A stretch of DNA of 64,000 nucleotides from Ophiura sarsii. Its lineage: Eukaryota; Echinodermata; Ophiuroidea; Amphilepidida; Ophiuridae. Under the pieces are notes generated by a model that did no database searches, was not told the origin of the DNA, and worked only from the letters and a program-made list of their open reading frames with translations. Both the position numbers and the translations under genes were made by a program. Shown here one piece after another: positions 8,206-60,056 of this stretch (the stretch's first letter is position 1; each line of letters begins with the position of its first letter). The stretch lies in contig CM069452.1 in NCBI GenBank assembly GCA_035610835.1, positions 9,443,109-9,507,108 on the forward strand, in the 5' to 3' direction.

Positions 8206-8209
8206 TTAA

Positions 8210-8410
8210 CTCCCTGGGGTCTACCGGCCTATCTTACAGTGGTTCTTATTGGTGTATTGCAAGATATACTCATTTGAATAGCCAATTAAAATGCAGCTTG
8301 TAAATTATTTCACTCCAATCTTTTTCAGGGATACAATTATTCTAACACTGTCTCTGATTGGCGCAATAAATTAAATCTTTCTGACCAATCGGCCGGTAGT
8401 TCTCAGGGGG
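8210..8410 (+). mobile_element. Family D MITE, copy 1 (TTAA target)
   Basis: A 201-bp element bounded by TTAA (8206-8209 and 8411-8414). The left end is CTCCCTGGGGTCTACCGGCC. The right end is the complement of CCCCCTGAGAACTACCGGCC, so the TIR is about 20 bp with a few differences. It is non-coding. A reverse copy is at 16,566-16,770 and shares interior motifs such as the GGGATACAATTATTCTAACA region. Confidence 0.85.
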
Positions 8411-8414
8411 TTAA

Positions 8415-16310: not shown

Positions 16311-16565
16311 CCTAACAAATATCACAGATTGAAAATATGCACTTTTTGGGTGTAACCATAGACAGTGGTGTAGCTCACTCAAGCAGACCAATTATTTTCT
16401 TACTATACTTTATTTAATACCAAATAGGCACAAATTGTGAGGCTCATTTCGCCGCTAACAAGAATTCCAACTGTCACACCACGCATTGATCTCAAGCCTG
16501 TATGGGCATATCATATGCCCTCCTTGCAGAGCTGCTATTACAAAAATCAGTCTATCCAGGGTTAA

Positions 16566-16770
16566 CCCCCTGAGAACTACCGGCCGATTGGTTAAAAAGA
16601 TGGATACATCATTTATTGCACCAATGAGAGACATTGTTAGAATAATTGTATCCCTGATAATTTTTTTTAATTTTTTTTACAAGCTGCATTTGAATTGGCT
16701 ATTCATATGAGTTCATCTTGTAATAAACCAATCAGAACCACTGTAAGATAGACAGGTAGACCCCAGGGGG
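16566..16770 (-). mobile_element. Family D MITE, copy 2 (reverse)
   Basis: It starts CCCCCTGAGAACTACCGGCC after TTAA (16,562-16,565). It ends in CAGGTAGACCCCAGGGGG, followed by TTAT, a one-base change from TTAA. The length of 205 bp matches copy 1 at 8210-8410 in reverse orientation. It is non-coding. Confidence 0.84.
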
Positions 16771-17449
16771 TTATAGTGGTTCTTGGATTCTTAGTCTAGT
16801 GTGAAAACTTCATTCTGGGATTATAAGCTTCATTCAGTATAATCCATCAATGTAGTCTTTAGTCTTTACCCTAGACTTATTACTCTGCCTCCCTTACATG
16901 AAGGTTATACCAGTCTTTCTTGATCAATACAACTTCATTATAAATATAAGGAGAGACAAAAATATGTGTAAAAATATGAAAAAGATCACATAATATTGCT
17001 TTGAATACGCACTGTACCCTGTATTTGCGTTTCTGAGAAATGTTTATCAGAAATGTAACGGACTGAAATGAAACTAATTACCAGAAACAGTTTCTATGAA
17101 ATGTGCTACAACTAAGCTTTTACAAAGTCTAGTGTTATCTAATACAAACATAATAACTCGATAATTTTCCCAATACAGTTAGTAGGATGTTTTCCCCTCG
17201 TATCTCACCTTGTGTGTACTAGTGCTGTGTACAAAGGGAATTCCCCTTCATTTTACACACATGTTTTTTTGTATTAAGATGTCTCAATCGTAAAGCTAAT
17301 TTGACTTGTATCTGACATAACTAGGTAGGGAGTTTAACTGGCTTTATGATTTTATGGTATCAACTGTGTTCCAAAAAAGGAACCATTATGCAACAAATAT
17401 TTAATGACACAGATATGTTTGACACACTTTCTTGATATTGTACTTTGTT
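16771..17449. other. Non-coding sequence
   Basis: No repeat boundary or gene was recognised between the family D MITE and the nested element downstream. Confidence 0.5.
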
Positions 17450-23270: not shown

Positions 23271-24838
23271 CCAGGAATCCCACACTCACTAAATGATCCA
23301 AAGAGTATACTGCTGCCTTCGATTTGCGGCAAAGAACATTATTATCCTCAATAAGAACGAACTGCATACAAACCATACAATAAAGAATCACAATTTTATA
23401 TGTGAATGTCAGGTGTTTTTTTCCTTCACCATTCCCTTAACTTAACTCTTTCCACCCAGCTATTAGTTTTACCATATAAAAAACAGATTTTCAGAAACCT
23501 TTCCCGATTTTTCAAAGTCTATCTCAAGGATTACTGAACCAATACGAGGCATGTTTGTACTTATTTCAATGCATTTCACATGGTGATTCCAAATATGGTT
23601 ATGAAATTTAACAATTTTGACATTTTTTAAACAGTTTGAGACATTTTGGAATGTCGTCTGCAGCTGCCTGCCGCGTGGAAAGTGTTAAGCTTAGGTTAAT
23701 CTACCACAGAGCTTTGTCAATTATTTCCTACATTGTACAATAGATGACGATGCATCTATACAATAGTCTCCCCCTACATTGTAGTCTCTGCTTGTCACTA
23801 CAGCATACTATACAATACTATAATGTAAAATGTTGGAAGCAGAAAATTCATATTTAATCTGATGAAATAAATTAATATAGTCAGATAGATTCAGTATCAG
23901 ATTCATCGCATTGCAGCTAACTTGAAGTATTTAATGCAAAATTCATGACGGACTTCATTTTGAAATTTACAAAAAATCCATTTGGTAAAACATGATTATG
24001 AAATTTGATTAAGGGCATGGTTGAGAAAGAATTATAATGGGGAAAACTTGTGGTTTCTTAAATTCAAACTGATTTGTAACAAATCAATAGATCCTAAATT
24101 GTAGAAGGGTGTAAAGGTTTGGAGCCCTCTGCTCCATACACCCCTGCATAGCAAAATTGAACTTCTAACTTCCTCGAAAAATTAAGATTTGCAGGGCTAC
24201 AAAAAGTATTGCTTTGCATATACATTTAATAAAATAAACAACTCTAGCTTGGCTGAAACAAAAAAGAAATATATAAGTTACACTGATGATAACTTTAATA
24301 GAATGAATATTATATAGCTTTTGGGCATCAGACAAAATGCTATCATCCCTCTTTCTAATTCCACATGCCACCGTTTCTTCATTTCGCTCGTTATTCGAAA
24401 AAACTCGGCAATCACGATTTATTGCTTTTCCTATCAAACTTGCCTAGCAATTTGATTGACAACACATGTCTGACTCCCGACCTTACAATAGTCATCAACC
24501 ACAGCTAATTGAAAAGAAGATAGGGGAAAAAACGACGTTGGCTAAGTGTTAGACTCCTACATAGATAGTATTTGACAACATCTACCAGTTTCGTTTATAA
24601 ATGAGAGTAGGAACCATAATGAACACTCCATCAACACCTCATTTAGCAAGCTGCTAACAGTATATGAAACAAACCGTATTTGATCCGGATGACTACATTT
24701 AACAGGGTAAATAGTTTGTAGGTAAATTGAGCTTCAAACATGGTTTCAAACAAATTATATTCTCCCTTTTACAGCAGCATTTTCTAAGGTACTGAGATTA
24801 ATTCAATTGATTGGAAACAGTTGGTTTAATGAACCTTC

Positions 24839-26470
24839 GCTATCTTCTGCAGATAGCATTCAATTGATTGCAATGAATTGGTTTAATTACATTCACTATT
24901 TTCAGTAGATAGCGTCTGATTGATTGCTATGGATTGTATTAATTGACTTTGCTATCTTCAGTAGATAGCATTCAATGGATTGCTATGGATTGTATTAATT
25001 GATTGTGTTATCTTCAGTAGATAGCATTCAATGGATGGATTGCATAAATTGACTTTGCTATCTTCAGTATATAGCATTCAATGGATGGCTTGCATAAATT
25101 GACTTTGCTATCTTCAGTAGATAGCATTCAATGGATGGCTTGCATAAATTGACTTTGCTATCTTCAGTAGATAGCATTCAATTGATGGATTGTATTAATT
25201 GAATTGGCTATTTTCAGTAGATAGCATTCAATGGATTGATATGGATTGGATTAATTGACTTTGTTATCTTCAGTAGATAGCATTCAATGGACGAATTGCA
25301 TAAATTGACTTTGCTATCTTCAGTAGATAGCATTCACATTCAATGGATTGCTAAGATTGTATAAATTAACTTTGCTATCTTCAGTAGATAGCATTCAATT
25401 GATTGATATGGATTGCATTGTATTAATTGACTTTGCTATCTTCAGTAGATAGCATTCAATGGACGAATTGCATAAATTGACTTTGCTATCTTCAGTAGAT
25501 AGCATTCAATAGATTGCTATGGATTGTATTAATTGATTTTGTTATCTTCAGTAGATAGCATTCAATGGACGAATTGCATACATTGACTTTGCTATCTTCA
25601 GTAGATAGCATTCAATGGATGGATTGCATAAATTGACTTTGCTATCTTAAGTAGATAGCATTCAATGGATCGCTAGAGATTGTATTACAGTCCAACCTCT
25701 GTTATCCGGACATGATCATGATGATGGGACCAAGCAATGGCTGGATAAGTGAAAAATCTGGATAAGCGAATTATGTGTAATTCTGCATTGACTCTCCTGT
25801 CCTGATGTGCTCAAATTGGGACAATAGAAGGGTACTATTAAAATGAGGGGTAATTACAGTGACAATGTATTATTAAGCACTAAACAGCACTACCAACATT
25901 AAAAGACAGCCGTCAAATGCTTCAGAGTGTGAAAATAAGGTGATTAGGCTGTAAAAAAACTTATTTTCTTTGGGGATCATTCAGCCAGATAACAGAATTA
26001 TACGGTTAAAAGAAGTCAGATAACCGATGTTGGACTGTAATTTACTTTGCCATCTGCAGTAGATAGCATTCAATGGATTGCTACGTACTGGGTTAATAGA
26101 CTTTGTTATCTTCAGTAGATAGCATTTAATGGTTTGCTACGTACTGGGTTAATAGACTTTGTTATCTTCAGTAGATAGCATTTAATGGTTTGCTATGGAT
26201 TGGATTAATTGACTTTGCTATCTTCAGTAGATAGAATTTAATGGTTTGCTATGAATTATATTAATTGAATTTGCTATTTTCAGAAGATGGCATTCCATGG
26301 ATTGCTACATACTAGATTAATAGACCGTGCTATCGTCAGTAAATAGCGTTCTAAAAAACACATTTAATCGATTGCTATGGATTGGGTTAATAGACCTTGT
26401 TATATTCAGTAGATAGCATTTAACTAATTCTTATTTGCTATCGTCAGTAGATAATATTCAATTGATTGCT
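24839..26470. repeat. Hairpin-containing satellite array
   Basis: About 24 monomers of roughly 50-65 bp. Each contains the inverted repeat GCTATCT-TCAGT-AGATAGC or a close variant. It is followed by an ATTCAATGGAT(T/G) segment and a TAAATTGACTTT segment. The monomers between about 25,050 and 25,680 are most alike; those at both ends are more diverged, as expected if homogenisation acts in the middle. A Tigger-like MITE (25,688-26,037) splits the array. A lone copy of the hairpin is at 55,234-55,252. Confidence 0.9.
25688..26037. mobile_element. Tigger/pogo-like MITE inside the satellite
   Basis: 350 bp flanked by TA on both sides. The left end is CAGTCCAACCTCTGTTATCC and the right end is the complement ending TTGGACTG. 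The CAGT...TTATCCGGA pattern, with repeated GGATAA motifs just inside, is characteristic of Tigger/pogo elements (established family knowledge). No transposase remains. Removing it restores a normal satellite monomer (GATTGTATTA then ATTTACTTTGCC), which proves insertion after array formation. Confidence 0.88.
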
Positions 26471-29180: not shown

Positions 29181-29429
29181 TAGCATGCGCTTCTCCAAGT
29201 CTATCTCCTGGCGCACCCAGTTGGGCTATCATATGCAGAGGAAAATCTTTAAATTTTCCAGGCCGTCTCCGGCTGGCTTTATTAGATAGGGACGGGATTG
29301 CCACACAAGCGACCACCCAGGTTCAATTCCCAGTGCCAGTAGAGCATGCCTCCCCCCACCAAATAAAATACAAAGCCTATTTTTCTCCCCTGGTAGTTTT
29401 ATTACCAAACCATGCCGCAGGGGTTGGGT
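29181..29429 (+). mobile_element. SINE-like unit, copy 1
   Basis: About 250 bp beginning TAGCATGCGCTTCTCCAAGT. It contains a Pol III box-B-like motif GGTTCAATTCC at 29,320-29,330 and ends around CATGCCGCAGGGGTTGGG. The same order of motifs is found at 35,315-35,500. The region before box B (GGGATTGCC...AAGCGACC) looks like the 3' half of a tRNA. Box A is not clear. No poly(A) tail is evident. The family is unknown. Confidence 0.6.
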
Positions 29430-31958: not shown

Positions 31959-32634
31959 CCCTAACCTGACCCCTGGGCTTTTTAACAAAAATGGGGAGAA
32001 GTGACAAGATGAACCAATACATTGCCGCTCCCCGAAGGGGAATCGATCCGGGGACCCTCCACGTATCAACTCGCCATCCTGCATAGGCAAGCCACGACTA
32101 TCAGCTTCACGTTCATATTACACTGCGCTGACTCTATAGGCTTGGTTGATTACGTCATTGAAAACAGTTCACGACGCGCTAGGAGTGCCATGGTATTTTG
32201 TGGTATTTGGTAGGGTTAGGGTTAATATTATTACTCTTTCCACACATGCGCTGGGAGTGCTACGATATTTTGTGGTACTTGGTAGGGTTAGGGCTAATAT
32301 TATTACTCTTTCCACACATGCGCTGGGAGTGCCGTGGTATTTTGTAGGGTTAGGGTCAATATTATTACTCTTTCCACACATGCGCTGGGAGTGCTGCGTT
32401 ATTTTGTGGTATTTGGTAGGGTTAGGGTTAATATTATTACTCTTTCCACACATGCGCTGGAAGTGCCGTAGTATTTTGTAGGGTTAGGGTCAATATTATT
32501 ACTCTTTCAACACATGCGCTGGGAGTGCTGCGTTATTTTGTGGTGCTTGGTAGGGTTAGGGTTAATATTATTACTCTTTCCATGACATGCGCTGGGAGTG
32601 CCGTTGTATTTTGAGGTATTTGGTAGGGTTAGGG
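31959..32634. mobile_element. Telomere-like-ended, tRNA-bearing element 1
   Basis: 676 bp between TTAA tetranucleotides (31,955-31,958 and 32,635-32,638). It starts CCCTAACC and ends GGTTAGGG, the same short inverted ends as at 59,767-60,056. The left third holds a tRNA-like T arm on the minus strand (32,020-32,110). The right two thirds are a tandem array of a roughly 72-bp unit that itself contains the right-end sequence. TTAA targets suggest a piggyBac- or Kolobok-type transposase acting in trans (inference). Confidence 0.7.
32020..32110 (-). pseudogene. tRNA-like relic
   Basis: On the minus strand the segment contains GGATCGATTCCCC, close to a Pol III B box with its T stem-loop. The upstream part TGGCTTGCCTATGCAGGATGG could be a degenerate anticodon arm. 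Box A is not convincing and the isotype cannot be assigned. Confidence 0.3.
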
Positions 32635-32638
32635 TTAA
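32177..32638 (+). repeat. TTAGGGTTA-containing minisatellite
   Basis: About seven units of 60-72 bp. Each runs GCGCTGGGAGTGCC, TATTTTGTGGTATTTGG, TAGGGTTAGGGTTAAT and ATTATTACTCTTTCCACACA. Short units lack about 10 bp after TATTTTGT. Every unit carries two tandem TTAGGG-type hexamers. The array explains the open frames on both strands at 32,146-32,481; these are not genes. Confidence 0.9.
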
Positions 32639-32928
32639 TATTATTAATCTTTTGAAGCTGAAACCCATTCGAACAAAATCTCTGCTTGTTATTCAAAAGA
32701 AATTGGGCAACACCTTTAATAGGCATTCATGGATGGGCAAGGGATGTTACCTTTCCTGTTTAAAAAAATTGAAACGTAACAATTTCCTTCTGGGAAAAAG
32801 AGTCAAATTGCTAATGTATGGTTATTGATCTCATTTAAAATGTTTTTGTTGTTGTTACAATTGATATCAGTTCAAGGAATATACAATTTGATTTTGATGA
32901 TGTCACATCTAAAAGTTCAAACACGTTA

Positions 32929-34775: not shown

Positions 34776-34779
34776 TTAA

Positions 34780-35132
34780 AGGTAGATGACCGATCACATT
34801 TTCGTAACACAGAATTATTTCAAACATACGGAGATTTTCATATCATATGAAAGCTCGTATTTTTCTCATCATCATACTGAAATTTGACGGCCTAAATCGG
34901 TATAATTACGGAGAAATCGATGAAATAACGTCGAATTACCGCGAATGGTGGTAACCAGTTTAACCACCGATATAGTTTGTGTACTACTCAATGGGTACAG
35001 TTCACAGCATCTTGTGCGTCTAAAATAAGAACCATTAGAGCTATGCAACTCAAACTTTGGAACACGACTTTTTTAAGGATGACCTTTTATGTAGAATAGA
35101 AAACTTCAAGTTGAAAATCGGAACATCTACCT
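34780..35132 (+). mobile_element. Family A MITE, copy 2 (TTAA target)
   Basis: Bounded by TTAA (34,776-34,779 and 35,133-35,136). It starts AGGTAGATGACCGATC. The right TIR is shortened (GGAACATCTACCT), having lost the GTGATCGGGTC part seen in copy 1. The interior is nearly identical to 919-1275, apart from a small insertion near 34,955. The high similarity suggests fairly recent activity. Confidence 0.88.
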
Positions 35133-35314
35133 TTAACGTCCTCCACTGCTTTAGCCCAACCCCAACCACTATTGCTAAACAAATCTCGGGGCATAATTCT
35201 GTTATACCCTTCACACCAACATCGGTAGTATGCGTCGTTCTTAAAAATCATGCACTATGAATACCTCTGTGAAGGGTATAACAGAATTACTCCCAAATCT
35301 GTACTAGGTGCTGT

Positions 35315-35500
35315 TAGCATGCACTTCCCCAGTCTCCAGGAGTGCCGGGAGGAATTTTAAATACGGATGACAATTTTCTACGCTGATTTCTTGGCTCAAT
35401 TACATAGGGGTGGGACTGCCAAGAAGGCGACCCGGGTTCGATTCCCCCTATCAGTTGACCCGTTTTTCTCCCCTAATAAAACATGCCACAAGGGTTGGGG
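35315..35500 (+). mobile_element. SINE-like unit, copy 2
   Basis: It shares with 29,181-29,429 the TAGCATGCRCTTC start, the GGGAYTGCC...AAGGCGACCC segment, a box-B-like GGGTTCGATTCC (about 35,434-35,445) and the end CATGCCACAAGGGTTGGGG. The segment before box B resembles the anticodon arm and variable region of a tRNA with CTGCCA. Box A is not evident. Confidence 0.6.
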
Positions 35501-35607
35501 CTATTAATAAATGCACATAAGACTTTTCATATAAATTTATTAACAAATTACTGAAAATGGTTATTTAAAAATTGATGTACTATGGTAGTTACATGTGACT
35601 GAACTTA

Positions 35608-36476
35608 CAGGGTGTCCCAAAAATATGTTAACACTCCGGGCACATAAGATATCTTAAAAGGACAGGAACACACGGGTCTAATCTTGATGTATTATGAAAG
35701 CTGAGTAAATAAGCTTTCATTTGCATTCCAATTGGTTATTTAGAACGGGAGATATGCTTCAGCAAACATGAGGAAGCAAAATCGGCTTGGTCCAATCCTC
35801 TCAGTATGAAAGTAAAGCTTTTAAAATGCACGAAGCAAGAAGCAACATGATTAAGTCACACACACACACATCAGTTAATCTCTTCTTTGTTCTTTTCAAC
35901 GCATTCTTTCGATTCACAAGATTAAAAGACATAAATAAATATATTCCACATAAATTATATATTGCAATGGGTAGCTGTCAGTAAAGCAGTCTTTAAAATT
36001 GAAATTGAAACATTTCATGTTCTTTGTTGAAATGGTCCATCCAATTAAATAAATTACCTTGCACATGGAAAAAGAGTATAGAACTTGAACTCATGACAAA
36101 ATACCTTTATAATTTATGTGGAATATATTTATTTATGTCTTTTAAGCTTGAAAAGAATCGAAAGAATGCGTTGAAAAGAACAAAGTAGAGATTAACTGAT
36201 GTGTGTGTGTGACTTAATCATGTTGCTTCTTGCTTCGTGCATACATTTTTTAAAAGCTTTACTTTCATACTGAGAGGATTGGACCAAGCCGATTTTGCTT
36301 CCTCATGTTTGCTGAAGCATATCTCCCGTTCTAAATAACCAATTGGAACGCAATCAAATGCAAATGAAAGCTCATTTACTCAGCTTTCATAATACATCAA
36401 GATTAGACCCGTGTGTTCCTGTCCTTTTAAGATATCTTATGTGCCCGGAGTGTTAACATTTTTTTGGGACACCCTG
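35608..36476. mobile_element. Long-TIR mariner-like foldback element, 869 bp
   Basis: TA flanks (35,606-35,607 and 36,477-36,478). The ends are CAGGGTGTCCCAAAAATATG and its complement ending TTTTTTTGGGACACCCTG, a terminus typical of many mariner-type elements. The arms are exceptionally long, about 350 bp each (35,608-35,960 and 36,115-36,476), with high identity and a central spacer of only about 150 bp. There is no transposase. The open frame at 35,787-35,984 is arm sequence. Confidence 0.9.
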
Positions 36477-37116
36477 TATTGCTGTAGCTTGGTAAATCTT
36501 CTTACAAAATCATCATTAAGAACATGAGGCATGCAAATAGGTTTGCCGCACAACTATTATCTAGTGCTCGCTGCTGGGTCATTTACACATTTCAGCGTTT
36601 AAAAACAAATGGAAAGGCCACTAAATGTTTACTAAACTCAATACACAATTTGTGTCCATAGTCGTTTTGCGTCAGCAGTTTATATCGTGCGATCATTTGG
36701 GATTTTCAACTGTTTTAGTTAGCTTAGAAATAAAACATAACCAAATAAAATATAATAGTTCATGTTCCGTATAATATTTGTATTGAACAACGTGTTGGAA
36801 AACTTGATTACAAACAATTTATTCTGTAAGAATTGCATTTAACTGGAGGCGCAAAATTTGGCAGTTGTTAAGCTGTTTGTTTGTTTAATTTCTAACATAG
36901 TTTAGCCTTAAAATTATCAACGTTTAGGAACTTAAATGGTAACTCCTTCAAACTAGACTAACACTACATGTATAGACCAGGATTGTATAACAACTCATTT
37001 ATGATACTGTATTAAATTGCCTTTAGCAAAGATCTTACATGTTGCATATATTCATAAACTGTAATTCATGTAATTTTGTATTTTTTCTTAAATAATTCAC
37101 AACTTCACCATTTCCA
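36477..37116. other. AT-rich non-coding sequence
   Basis: Nothing was recognised between the foldback element and the tRNA-bearing element. Confidence 0.5.
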
Positions 37117-37254
37117 TTAATAACCCTAACCCCACTAGACCATACAAAATCATCCAAAATAAAACTATCTCCACGCGTGTGCTGCTGCATTGGCTCGATT
37201 ACGTCACCTACCGCAGGCATATGTGGCCACGAAGTTTGTGGCCGCATATGCGCT

Positions 37255-37325
37255 GGGGAGTTAGCTCAGTTGATAGGGGCACAGACTGGGGTGCGAATGG
37301 TCCCGGGATCGAATCCCGGGGGGAG
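37255..37325 (+). pseudogene. tRNA-like unit a
   Basis: Box A is TAGCTCAGTTGATAGGGGC. The T arm CCGGG-ATCGAAT-CCCGG has a perfect 5-bp stem. The anticodon arm is degenerate (GCAC/GTGC around AGACTGGG). The acceptor arms (GGGGAGT and a G-rich 3' side) do not pair. It is therefore a tRNA-derived Pol III promoter rather than a functional tRNA. Confidence 0.6.
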
Positions 37326-37526
37326 GGGGAAAAGGGGGAAAAAGTACAATTTTTTTAGGGTTAAAACACACAATTTTTCAATGTTCCATAACCCTAACCC
37401 CACTAGACCATACAAAATCATCCAAAATAAAACTATCTCCACGCGCGTGCTGCTGCATTGGCTCGATTACGTCACCTACCGCAGGCATATATATGTGGCC
37501 ACGAAGTTTGTGGCCGCATATGCGCT

Positions 37527-37597
37527 GGGGAGTTAGCTCAGTTGATAGGGGCACAGACTGGGGTGCGAATGGTCCCGGGATCGAATCCCGGGGGGAG
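37527..37597 (+). pseudogene. tRNA-like unit b
   Basis: The second tandem copy, identical as far as read to unit a, including the perfect T stem and the unpaired acceptor. Confidence 0.6.
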
Positions 37598-37798
37598 GGG
37601 GAAAAGGGGGAAAAAGTACAATTTTTTTAGGGTTAAAACACACAATTTTTCAATGTTCCATAACCCTAACCCCACTAGACCATACAAAATCATCCAAAAT
37701 AAAACTATCTCCACGCGCGTGCTGCTGCATTGGCTCGATTACGTCACCTACCGCAGGCATATATATGTGGCCACGAAGTTTGTGGCCGCATATGCGCT

Positions 37799-37869
37799 GG
37801 GGAGTTAGCTCAGTTGATAGGGGCACAGACTGGGGTGCGAATGGTCCCGGGATCGAATCCCGGGGGAGG
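37799..37869 (+). pseudogene. tRNA-like unit c
   Basis: The third tandem copy. Its G-rich 3' flank is slightly shorter than in units a and b. A further inverted fragment of the T arm (CCCGGGATTCGATCCCGGG) lies at about 37,925-37,943. Confidence 0.6.
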
Positions 37870-38379
37870 GGGAAAAGGGGGGAAAAGTACAATTTTTTTA
37901 ACCCGAAAAATCACCGAGCACCCCCCCGGGATTCGATCCCGGGAAAAAGTACAATTTTTTTAACGCATATTAGGTGACATATTAGGTAGGTGACGTAATC
38001 GAGCCAATGCAGCAGCACGCGCGTGGAGATAGTTTTAGCCACAAACTTCGTGGCCACATATGCCTGCGGTAGGTGACGTAATCGAGCCAATGCAGCAGCA
38101 CGCGCGTGGAGATAGTTTTATTTTGGATGATTTTGTATGGTCTAGTGGGGTTAGGGTTAATGTTGATTTGCAATCCTGATGAACTCATTCAAAGAAAAAA
38201 AGGAAACGGTTCCAACAAGGTACACATAGCTCAAAAGCATTCTTTCATTGCTTGACTCCTCTGAAAGTACATGGGAAAAGTTCATCAACATTTTCTGAAT
38301 CAAATGAATATCCAGTGAAATAACGTTACTTTAAAAGATTCAAATTTGATATGATTTACTATTTTTATCATTTTTGCAG

Positions 38380-49343: not shown

Positions 49344-49397
49344 GTGGAATACAGAGATTATCCAATATACTCATGTTTTCCTACGAGAGAATTAAAG
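49344..49397 (+). CDS. Candidate exon abutting a MITE (weak)
   Basis: A strong acceptor (CCTCTTCCCTCAG) is followed by 18 open codons reading VEYRDYPIYSCFPTREL(K). The only donor-like site (AAAG/GTGGAT) lies at the edge of the family A MITE, so the element either supplies the donor or interrupts the exon. No family was recognised. Confidence 0.22.
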
Positions 49398-49883
49398 GTG
49401 GATGTTCCGTTCACCTTAAGCTTGCCCTTTTGCCTACAACATATTTTGATACCAGAAGAAACCCCATTTTTTTCTGATTATTTCTGTAAAATGTTTGGTG
49501 CAAAATATGATCCATTTAGACGTTATAGGCCAAATACTCAATGGGCAAATGTTAAAGTCACATTGTGCTTCTAATATAAGAACCATTGGAGTTATGCAAC
49601 TCAGATTTTGGAATACGGCTATTGTATGGATTTTGATACCAGAAGAAACCCCATTTTTTCTCTGATTATTTCTGTAAAATGTTTGGTGCAAGATATGTTC
49701 CATTTAGACGTTATAGGCCAATTTCTCAATGGGCAAATATTAAAGTCACCTTGTGCTTCTAATATCAGAACCATTGGAGTTATGCAACTCAGACTTTGGA
49801 ATACGGCTATTGTATGGACGAACGTACATGTAAAATAGAAAACATCACGTTGTAAATCGGGCAAGGAATCGGAACACCTACCT
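49396..49883 (+). mobile_element. Family A-related MITE, copy 3, internally duplicated
   Basis: TTAA flanks (49,392-49,395 and 49,884-49,887). It starts AGGTGGATGTTCCG and ends CGGAACACCTACCT. It is longer than copies 1 and 2 because a unit of about 187 bp is present twice in tandem (49,444-49,630 and 49,631-49,815). The phrases AAGAACCATTGGAGTTATGC and AACTCAGACTTTGGAA echo copies 1 and 2. Open frames on both strands here derive from the duplication. Confidence 0.84.
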
Positions 49884-49887
49884 TTAA

Positions 49888-51347: not shown

Positions 51348-51420
51348 GGCCGGGTAGCTCAGTGGTTAGAGCGTTCGACTTGTGTTCGAAAGGTCACGGG
51401 TTCGATTCCCGCACCGGCTC
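51348..51420 (+). tRNA. tRNA-Thr(TGT)-like gene
   Basis: A cloverleaf can be drawn. The acceptor GGCCGGG pairs with ACCGGCT (one G-T, one mismatch). The D arm is GCTC/GAGC around AGTGGTTA. The anticodon stem TTCGA/TCGAA is perfect, with loop CTTGTGT giving anticodon TGT. The T arm ACGGG-TTCGATT-CCCGC has one A-C mismatch. Boxes A and B match consensus well, and a T5 run follows at 51,431. CCA is not encoded, as usual in eukaryotes. The acceptor and T-stem mismatches leave open that it is a tRNA-derived SINE head or pseudogene. Confidence 0.6.
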
Positions 51421-53795: not shown

Positions 53796-55346
53796 TATCC
53801 ATCCCTGATACGCCTTAATAGTACAGATCCAGGGAAAGGAATCCTGTTACCGCTACAAAATCAAATTTGCAATCTAAAATCCAATTTGATAATATAGCAG
53901 ATTAGAATAAAAGTAGCACTGATCCACGTCAACACTCAAGCCAACTCAACTCTTGTATACACGCAACTCCTGCAGCCACATGGCCCATATCGAACGGAAA
54001 CTGGGAATTTCCTTCATGGGGGCAGACTGACGCAACATGACCGCAAGCTAATGAGATAGTTGGACGGGTGGGCATTCACTCAAGATTGAAAGGGTTAGCT
54101 GACCTTTGACCCCTGGATACTTGTCAGTATCTCATATTCAAAATCACTTACCCAATGTCAAGTAAGCTTAACCTTGCCCCTTCCCCTTAAATATTTTAAC
54201 TTAGAAGGGAATATGTTACATATCGTAAAAGTCAGCATTTTCAGAGATTATAGACTAGGTAAGTACTCTACTCTAAAGAAGTTGAACACTGATAAAAACT
54301 TTTCTATTTTGCTAAGAGCAGAAATTGTCATAAGGCCCTTCACAATCGATGTTGAGTTTCCGGTTGCCGCCCGCGTCCAAAAACGGTACCGCGTCACTTT
54401 TTTGATTATGAATTATTTACACATTCTGCCGCAAAAACGGATGTTTCTTCATCAAAATTCACCTTTTTTACTACATCACGAAGTTCATTCGGAATGCGAT
54501 CCATATCGATAGCTAGGGACCAAGATTGCAGTCTCTGTACATGCATTTTAATTACTACTGTGAACTCACAATTTATTGTAAGAGTGTACTTTTGAAATGT
54601 AACAGAGTTTGCTCTGTACCGTATGTTTTTAGCTCCAATCACTGTTTACTACGCTATTAATATTCCAAAAGATAGCGGGTATCGGGAAATTTCATGTCAC
54701 AACAGTATGGACGTTCAAATATCATTTATCACAACACTGTTCACTACAAACACAATAAATGAACTTTGATTTCTAAAAAATGAGCTTTAAATAGCGCCCC
54801 CAAATTCAACTGGGTTCCTTCTGACAAGGTCTGGATAAAGCCCAAGTCAAATTGAGGGCGCTAATTCAGTTGCCATGGATGGCTTATAAATAAATGGCGA
54901 GATTTTGTTCCCATATCGCGGCGTAAAAACTAAAAATATCTATCGTATCTATCCTTTGGTAGACATCACTGAACGTGTACTGTACAGCAGTTGACATCAA
55001 CTCACATAGTATTTGGATTTACCAACAAATATATAAAATTCATGAGTTAGTATTAGTAGTGTATATCATCCCCAAATTAAAAAAAAAAAATTGTCAAGCA
55101 TGCAACTTCAAGGGAAGGTGCAGAATTTGACTAAATCTTCAGGCGGTCACGTACGTCAGTCAAATTTAAATTTTGTTTGTTTGTAAGTTTGTTTGGTGGG
55201 GTATTTGTATTGTTGTATTTTTTTCGGGAGATTGCTATTTTCAGTAGATAGCGGGGTAGATAGTAACTCGAAAACGGAACCGCCAGCCAGGTTGTGGTGT
55301 GAACTGAAAAACTGGAAGAATTAACAAACACATGCATGAAACTTAA
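53796..55346. other. Non-coding sequence with small inverted repeats
   Basis: TAGCGCCCCCAAATTCAA (about 54,793) and CAAATTGAGGGCGCTA (about 54,857) form a short inverted pair. A solitary copy of the satellite hairpin GCTATTTTCAGTAGATAGC is at 55,234-55,252. A donor-like CTAG/GTAAGTAC at about 54,258 has no convincing exon. Confidence 0.4.
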
Positions 55347-55615
55347 CCCTAACACTCCCGGTGGATTTTCCAACGAAAATTCTTTCAAGCCAAAAAAGCA
55401 CACACAACAAGAGGTGCCACGCCCCGGGGTTTGAACCCACGACCTCTCGGTTGACAGGCGAACGCTCTACCAACTGAGCCACGGGGGAAGCTATGCTGGG
55501 CGAGTGTACTCGCCCAGCTATGTAGCCCGGGGCCATTATTTCACCCAAAAACCTCAGCGCCAGGTGGAACCGACAGGCTGGGAAATGGGATTTCATGGGG
55601 TACGGGGCTGTTAGG
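55347..55615. mobile_element. Telomere-like-ended, tRNA-bearing element 3
   Basis: 269 bp between TTAA (55,343-55,346 and 55,616-55,619). The left end is CCCTAACACTCCCGG and the right end is the complement of CCTAACAGCCCCG, so the right end lacks one C. The element contains the Asp-like tRNA unit on the minus strand. It is the simplest member, without internal tandem repeats. Confidence 0.7.
55417..55488 (-). pseudogene. tRNA-Asp(GTC)-like unit
   Basis: Minus strand: box A TGGCTCAGTTGG, D stem GCTC/GAGC, anticodon loop CTGTCAA (GTC), T loop TTCAAAC after GTGGG. The acceptor TCCCCCG against GGCGTGG has three mismatches, and the anticodon stem has one. It is tRNA-derived but unlikely to be functional in translation. 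Confidence 0.6.
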
Positions 55616-59766: not shown

Positions 59767-60056
59767 CCCTAACCGCACTACGTCTCACAGACACATCACA
59801 GCCAGCACCACTTGGCTTGCGGGCGCACAAGTTCTATCTCATGTAGCACTAAACTACGGGTATATATATTATATGGTCTCCGATTTTTTAGCCTGTGAAG
59901 CCCTCCCCCCGTGGCTGAGTGGTAGTATATCTCGCCTGTCACGCGGCCGACCCGGGTTCAATTCCCGGGGCCGGCGGACATAATTTTCCCCATTTTTTAT
60001 TGAACCTCCTCCCCCGTTCTTCGTTCTATCCCCACTGCCACGTTCTAGGGTTAGGG
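59767..60056. mobile_element. Telomere-like-ended, tRNA-bearing element 4
   Basis: 290 bp with TTAA at both borders (59,763-59,766 and 60,057-60,060). It starts CCCTAACCGC and ends CTAGGGTTAGGG. It carries a tRNA-Asp-like unit in the plus orientation in its right half. Beyond the CCCTAACC/GGTTAGGG ends and the tRNA unit it shares little obvious sequence with elements 1-3, which is the odd aspect of the set. Confidence 0.72.
59905..59976 (+). pseudogene. tRNA-Asp(GTC)-like unit
   Basis: Box A is TGGCTGAGTGG. The anticodon region CTCGC-CTGTCAC-GCGG gives anticodon GTC, and the CGCCTGTCACGCGG stretch is what eukaryotic tRNA-Asp has. The T arm CCGGG-TTCAATT-CCCGG is perfect. The acceptor CCCCCCG against GGCCGGC pairs poorly, so it is a tRNA-derived promoter rather than a working tRNA. 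Confidence 0.65.

Follow-up and report, generated by a model that had tools for sequence, protein, structure and literature searches.

TTAA-flanked elements with telomere-like tips and a tRNA-like core in a 64-kb stretch of Ophiura sarsii DNA

At positions 37124..38156 (+) of the window, i.e. the whole 64-kb stretch of Ophiura sarsii DNA analysed here (G+C content 33–40 %), inverted ends and a telomere-like start coincide with a tRNA-like Pol III promoter at a single locus, hereafter E1, which raises the question of what kind of element this is and where its limits lie. The initial annotation had placed these limits at near-perfect inverted ends of 122 bp, each opening with two telomere-like hexamers, with a unit of about 270 bp bearing the tRNA-like promoter three times in between. 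The observation is real and unusual, and the co-occurrence of inverted tips, tRNA-like promoter and telomere-like start described for this locus recurs in three more elements of the window, i.e. E2, E3 and E4.

The reported locus consists of three direct units followed by a broken inverted copy, with ATAA as its left neighbour (37120–37123) and TTAA as its right neighbour (38157–38160). The threefold repetition was read correctly: the direct units form a head-to-tail tandem array (37120–37900, period 272, 2.9 copies), in which the promoter boxes start at 37262, 37534 and 37806. Unit 1, the basic element of 237 bp (37124..37360, +), reads CCCTAACCCC...TTTTTTTAGGG, with ATAA on its 5′ side and TTAA (37361–37364) on its 3′ side, and is separated from the next ATAA|CCCTAACCCC by a 23-bp spacer (37365–37387). 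Unit 2 (37392..37632, +; 241 bp), which shows a 4-nt AT insertion relative to unit 1, again lies between ATAA and TTAA, with a further copy of the spacer behind it (37637–37659), while unit 3 (37664..37900, +) lacks the terminal GGG|TTAA. Since units 1 and 2 both terminate in TTTAGGG|TTAA, one unit is already an element, which had been missed earlier. The last duplication within E1 was probably recent, because the stretches 37219–37490 and 37491–37762 are identical over all 272 nt; the third repeat copy is 93 % identical over 137 nt.

The inverted ends themselves do exist, with arms (37121–37242 and 38038–38159) of 122 nt that are 99 % complementary, but the right third of the locus is made up of several pieces and does not form a single clean arm. 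This rearranged inverted part (37901..38156, −) comprises an inverted B box (37922–37944), a direct tail piece (37941–37962) and inverted pieces at 37985–38037 and 38038–38156, the latter being the right arm and corresponding to the first part of a unit in inverted orientation. The complementary ends are due to the broken inverted copy that follows the three direct units, and the view that they define the element is not supported; its basic unit measures 237–290 bp with matching tips of only 6–8 nt. A strong hairpin lies 5′ of the tRNA-like core (37217..37251, +; z −6.33 for 37210–37258), and its 3′ stem contains the inner boundary of the left arm (37242); the palindromic B box is the site of another rearrangement junction. 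The long inverted ends probably represent a secondary rearrangement.

Regarding the telomere-like start, the tip of E1 is ATAACCCTAACCCC, which amounts to two TAACCC hexamers only when the flanking TAA is included. Seven of the eight outer tips of E1–E4 adjoin TTAA, the exception being the left tip of E1 with ATAA; the telomere-like start is thus explained most simply by a CCCTAACC tip adjoining a TTAA site, an arrangement that nonautonomous, piggyBac-like DNA transposons of TTAA type would be expected to show. When both strands of the whole window were searched, TTAACCCTAAC gave nine exact matches, compared to none in 10 Markov simulations, and all nine lie at tips of E1–E4 (internal tips of E2 included). 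With up to one mismatch, 20 matches were found versus a mean of 0.9 in the simulations; three of them lie outside the elements (45099, 48360 and 60159) and were not counted as tips. The two tips match over 8 nt in both E2 and E3 and over 6 nt in the E1 unit; in E4, the match is 7 nt long and requires a gap of one base. Longer matching ends are found only in the rearranged E1 as a whole. As TTAA is palindromic, a duplication and an inverted repeat look the same in the sequence of these filled sites.

The three further elements, which the TTAACCCTAAC matches delimit together with the damaged tip of E4, are of similar size, i.e. 263 bp for the basic element of E2 (31959..32221, −), 290 bp for E3 (59767..60056, +) and 269 bp for E4 (55347..55615, −), and each has TTAA on both sides; the E4 tip at 55615 has one C missing. 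E2 is accompanied by a tandem array of its right end plus flank (32176..32652, +) carrying seven TAGGGTTAGGG tips, the outermost of which ends at 32634 and is followed by TTAA. The spacer of this array matches the outer flank at 13 of 14 positions; among 5000 shuffles 11 did as well, as did 20 of 5000 window pieces. This suggests that the array grew in tandem once the element had inserted, taking in the flank. The E1 spacer may have arisen in the same way, but it does not resemble the left flank significantly (883 of 5000 shuffles and 351 of 5000 window pieces were as good).

The tRNA-like core was delimited by scanning the whole window for A and B boxes 30–59 nt apart with a score of at least 16/19. 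Nine places reached this limit, six of them being the three E1 units, E2, E3 and E4, and the other three a tRNA-Thr gene (51348), a SINE-like locus (35392) and a weak match at 2521. In E1 unit 1, A box to B box spans 37262..37316 (+), repeated at 37534–37588 and 37806–37860, with the boxes 44 nt apart in each unit. E2 has weak tRNA-like boxes (32089–32039, −), the core of E3 is tRNA-Asp-like (boxes 59912–59965), and E4 contains a tRNA-Asp(GTC) recognized by both ARAGORN and Rfam (55416–55489, −). The A box starts at a nearly constant distance from the tip of the same sense, i.e. 139 nt in E1 unit 1, 143 nt in units 2 and 3, 146 nt in E3, 135 nt in E4 and 133 nt in E2, where the first of the seven right ends served as reference. 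If the boxes were placed uniformly, a spread of at most 13 nt across E1–E4 would occur with p about 0.0009; the calculation used 136 nt for E4.

As tRNAs, the cores are of very unequal quality. Only that of E4 exceeds the Rfam gathering score of 29 (32.5 bits), while E3 (14.8 bits) and E1 (11.2 bits) fall below it; ARAGORN made no tRNA call at the E1 core, which is degenerate as a tRNA. The E2 core has no Rfam match, and its tRNA likeness is weak and based on the boxes alone. Among 200 resampled sequences per element, the observed box score was reached by none for E1 unit 1, two for E2, none for E3 and one for E4; when pieces of the window as long as the whole of E2 were scored, which may overlap E1–E4, 31 of 300 reached the E2 value. 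The two Asp-like cores, E3 and E4, are 74.6 % identical over 71 columns, while those of E1 and E2 are degenerate. A hairpin upstream of the core is present in E1 and E4 and absent from E2 and E3. According to the initial annotation, genome-wide copies of the ends without a tRNA unit, or of the tRNA unit with other ends, would reduce the combination to chance nesting. Each of the four paired tip sets in the window comes with a tRNA-like core, although that of E2 is weak, so that ends without a tRNA unit are not seen locally; tRNA units with other ends do occur in the form of the tRNA-Thr gene and of two SINE-like loci, which any such genome would be expected to contain.

Apart from tips and core, the four elements show little resemblance. 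When the terminal 7–8 nt were excluded and shuffles served as comparison, the 5′ ends were equalled by 161 of 2000 shuffles over 25 nt and 158 of 2000 over 40 nt, and the 3′ ends by 1072 and 185 of 2000, respectively. The best of the six pairs of 5′ ends, E2 and E4, was equalled by 79 of 2000 shuffles, and the leaders showed no convincing likeness either (30 of 500). Via the core, a profile of the four elements also matches a SINE-like locus and the tRNA-Thr gene (E 1.1e-4 and 1.1e-9, respectively). What E1–E4 have in common is thus the tips, the core and the layout, and common descent is not shown, because there is no significant likeness beyond the tips and the tRNA cores. Judging by sequence, the observed pattern would result either from an old family that kept only tips, core and layout or from convergence by repeated capture.

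Searches of other collections, which are viral and prokaryotic and hence not very informative on relatives of a eukaryotic element, gave few matches. In a collection of viral contigs, the E1 tip word had no match, two patterns combining tip and boxes had none each, and a 17-mer of E1 was found in five stretches, while a pattern from the B box to the right tip occurred in one stretch of the prokaryotic genome contigs (an Aeropyrum MAG). No report of tRNA-bearing TTAA elements was found in the open-access literature, which is weak evidence of absence.

TTAA-type elements are not limited to E1–E4, as the window contains at least six others, which fall into three further tip families. TTAA-flanked elements whose inverted tips are of AGGTAGATGACC type are located at 915–1279, 34776–35136 and 49392–49887; the first two are 95 % identical, and the third contains a 188-bp tandem duplication (49443–49818). 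A MITE family of TTAA type with CCCCCTG tips has members at 16562–16774 (right neighbour TTAT) and 8206–8414, which are 83 % identical and have no tRNA-like core, and a TTAA-flanked AGGRAAGCGGTC element with AGGRAAGCGGTCATGGTGAGGA-type inverted tips lies at 2438–2753. Using a B-box score of at least 8, an A/B-box pair is absent from five of these six elements and weak in the sixth; the weak pair at 2521, inside the 2438–2753 element and about 80 nt from its tip, is probably due to chance. A scan for paired TTAA sites yielded 16 pairs (four in E2, four in AGG-tipped elements, seven in two large palindromes and one at 23442–23688), compared to eight for AATT, five for TATA and 13 for ATAT, with many of the pairs located within large palindromes. 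Given the 13 pairs of the ATAT control, the scan alone does not single out TTAA. Since the scan is no proof by itself, it is the repeated families adjoining TTAA that carry the case for TTAA-type elements.

Taken together, E1 is a tandem and partly inverted array of a 237-bp unit, and this unit is quite probably a nonautonomous TTAA-type transposon. More generally, E1–E4 probably belong to the cut-and-paste transposons and would take a tRNA-type promoter with them as they spread in the host genome. A piggyBac-like transposase acting in trans would move the nonautonomous unit, with TTAA as the duplicated target site, and TTAA plus CCCTAACC would thus mimic a telomere repeat without being one. 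Retention of the tRNA-like core might be explained by bound Pol III factors that help the element to persist or to stay accessible. After insertion, E1 would have been duplicated along with 23 bp of flank, and a template switch during replication at its palindromes (the 37217–37251 hairpin and the B box) could have generated the inverted right part, while E2 would have expanded by tandem growth taking in its flank. It is tempting to speculate that this is a kind of TTAA cut-and-paste transposon that has telomere-like tips and cannot work without a tRNA-type Pol III promoter set at a constant offset, only tips and core being constrained while the remainder drifts, even though we regard this as doubtful. 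If so, the elements would supply the genome with Pol III/TFIIIC sites that are mobile and ready for use, with E4 still callable as a tRNA gene.

Other origins have to be weighed against this. Separate short TTAA elements with similar tips might have captured different tRNA genes, without any common descent, and both the lack of convincing likeness outside tips and core and the differences between the cores (Asp-like in E3 and E4, degenerate in E1 and E2) would fit such convergence. It has to contend, though, with the agreement of the offsets within 13 nt (p about 0.0009) and with the lack of a convincing core in the other TTAA families nearby, so that we hold it to be possible, yet not the probable course of events. 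Regardless, convergence concerns the origin of the elements and is compatible with TTAA-type mobility. Less credible is the view of the whole of E1 as a single foldback-type transposon of 1.03 kb with terminal inverted repeats of 122 nt. While the 99 % complementarity of the arms over 122 nt and the TTAA at the right end agree with it, units 1 and 2 are each already bounded by CCCTAACC and TTAGGG|TTAA, the right part consists of rearranged pieces, and E2–E4 measure just 263–290 bp and lack long arms. The whole of E1 may still have moved at a later time.

The telomere-like appearance of the tips could also suggest linear DNA capped by real telomere repeats and inserted at breaks, with the tips as relics of telomerase. 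The tips are indeed in telomere orientation, with CCCTAA on the left and TTAGGG on the right, and two hexamers are present at the right ends of E2 and E3. However, a telomere would go on as CTAA at the left and as TTAG at the right outer tips, which none of those of E1–E4 does, seven of eight reading TTAA instead. Together with a telomere-repeat tract that never exceeds about two hexamers and with the constancy of the tRNA offset, this renders such an origin very improbable. Slightly more remote still is the idea that E1–E4 are tRNA-derived, reverse-transcribed SINEs that lie beside interstitial telomeric repeats by chance. Internal A and B boxes are present in all four, and the window does harbour two SINE-like loci with a tRNA-like head (29264–29385 and 35379–35500), which share the body TTTTTCTCCCC...ATGCC.CA.GGGTTGGG. 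These loci nevertheless lack the CCCTAACC tips of E1–E4, the 5′ match to the tip being just 6/12 at 35392; the box score at 29264–29385 is under the limit of 16/19. Since Pol III transcription is expected to begin a short distance 5′ of the A box, the 133–146 nt that precede this box in E1–E4 make SINE identity unlikely. Moreover, their tips are inverted at both ends and adjoin TTAA, and a 3′ tail that is A-rich or made of simple repeats is lacking. The tRNA-Thr(TGT) gene (51348–51420; ARAGORN, Rfam 56.7 bits) looks intact and sits outside any TTAA element.

Among known systems, the closest resemblance of the proposed nonautonomous TTAA-type transposons is to piggyBac, the tips of which begin with CCC, as do those of E1–E4. 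Like nonautonomous piggyBac-type elements such as human MER85 (PMC2268245), they are short and geneless, with TTAA on both sides and inverted tips. The same source gives piggyBac elements inverted repeats of 13–15 nt next to the flanking TTAA duplication, and excision without footprint is described for them elsewhere (PMC3878927). With matching tips of only 6–8 nt, E1–E4 differ from these elements and are therefore likened to the piggyBac type and not filed as members; unlike MER85-type elements, moreover, each of them has a tRNA-like core at a fixed offset. The TBEs of Oxytricha (PMC4724952) carry a telomere repeat in long terminal inverted repeats, generate ANT target duplications, encode three ORFs and belong to Tc1/mariner. 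E1–E4 resemble them in the telomeric repeat at the CCCTAACC tips, albeit of only one to two hexamers, but have TTAA neighbours and, at 237–290 bp, are too short for three ORFs. With tRNA-derived SINEs they share the internal A and B boxes (weak in E2) and differ in the long leader, the inverted tips and the TTAA sites; at their 3′ ends, they show TTAGGG beside TTAA in place of an A-rich or simple-repeat tail with a longer, variable duplication. TTAA sites are also used by Kolobok-type transposons, to which the AGG-tipped TTAA elements of the window may belong; the tips of E1–E4 differ from these.

A DNA transposon that regularly carries tRNA-like genes would represent a spread route besides retroposition and could account for some scattered tRNA pseudogenes. 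Both tRNA genes and B boxes bound by TFIIIC influence replication, chromatin boundaries and nuclear position. In addition, the imitation of a telomere repeat by TTAA plus a CCCTAACC tip may mislead searches for interstitial telomeres.

Regarding coding capacity, no transposase was found above the Pfam cut-off among the 20 ORFs scanned of the 475 in the window with at least 45 aa, and five matches within these 20 were sub-threshold. One candidate, the ORF at 54099–54509 as A2M, was rejected, its Pfam match being sub-threshold (E 0.029) and unsupported by a PDB sequence search.

Some minor observations may be added. The sequence GATTACGTCA, which we take to resemble a CRE-type site, is present in both E1 (37197–37206) and E2 (32148–32157) at a similar offset and in opposite orientation relative to the core, and a longer match between the two elements around it has an E value of 0.44. 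A large inverted repeat with arms of about 350–370 nt and 93 % identity is located at 35606–36478, near a CAGGGTGTCCCA start. Finally, the tandem arrays at 24804–25670 and 26044–26347 are built on the palindromic core CTATCTTCAGTAGATAG, which is found also near 55240, in the neighbourhood of E4.
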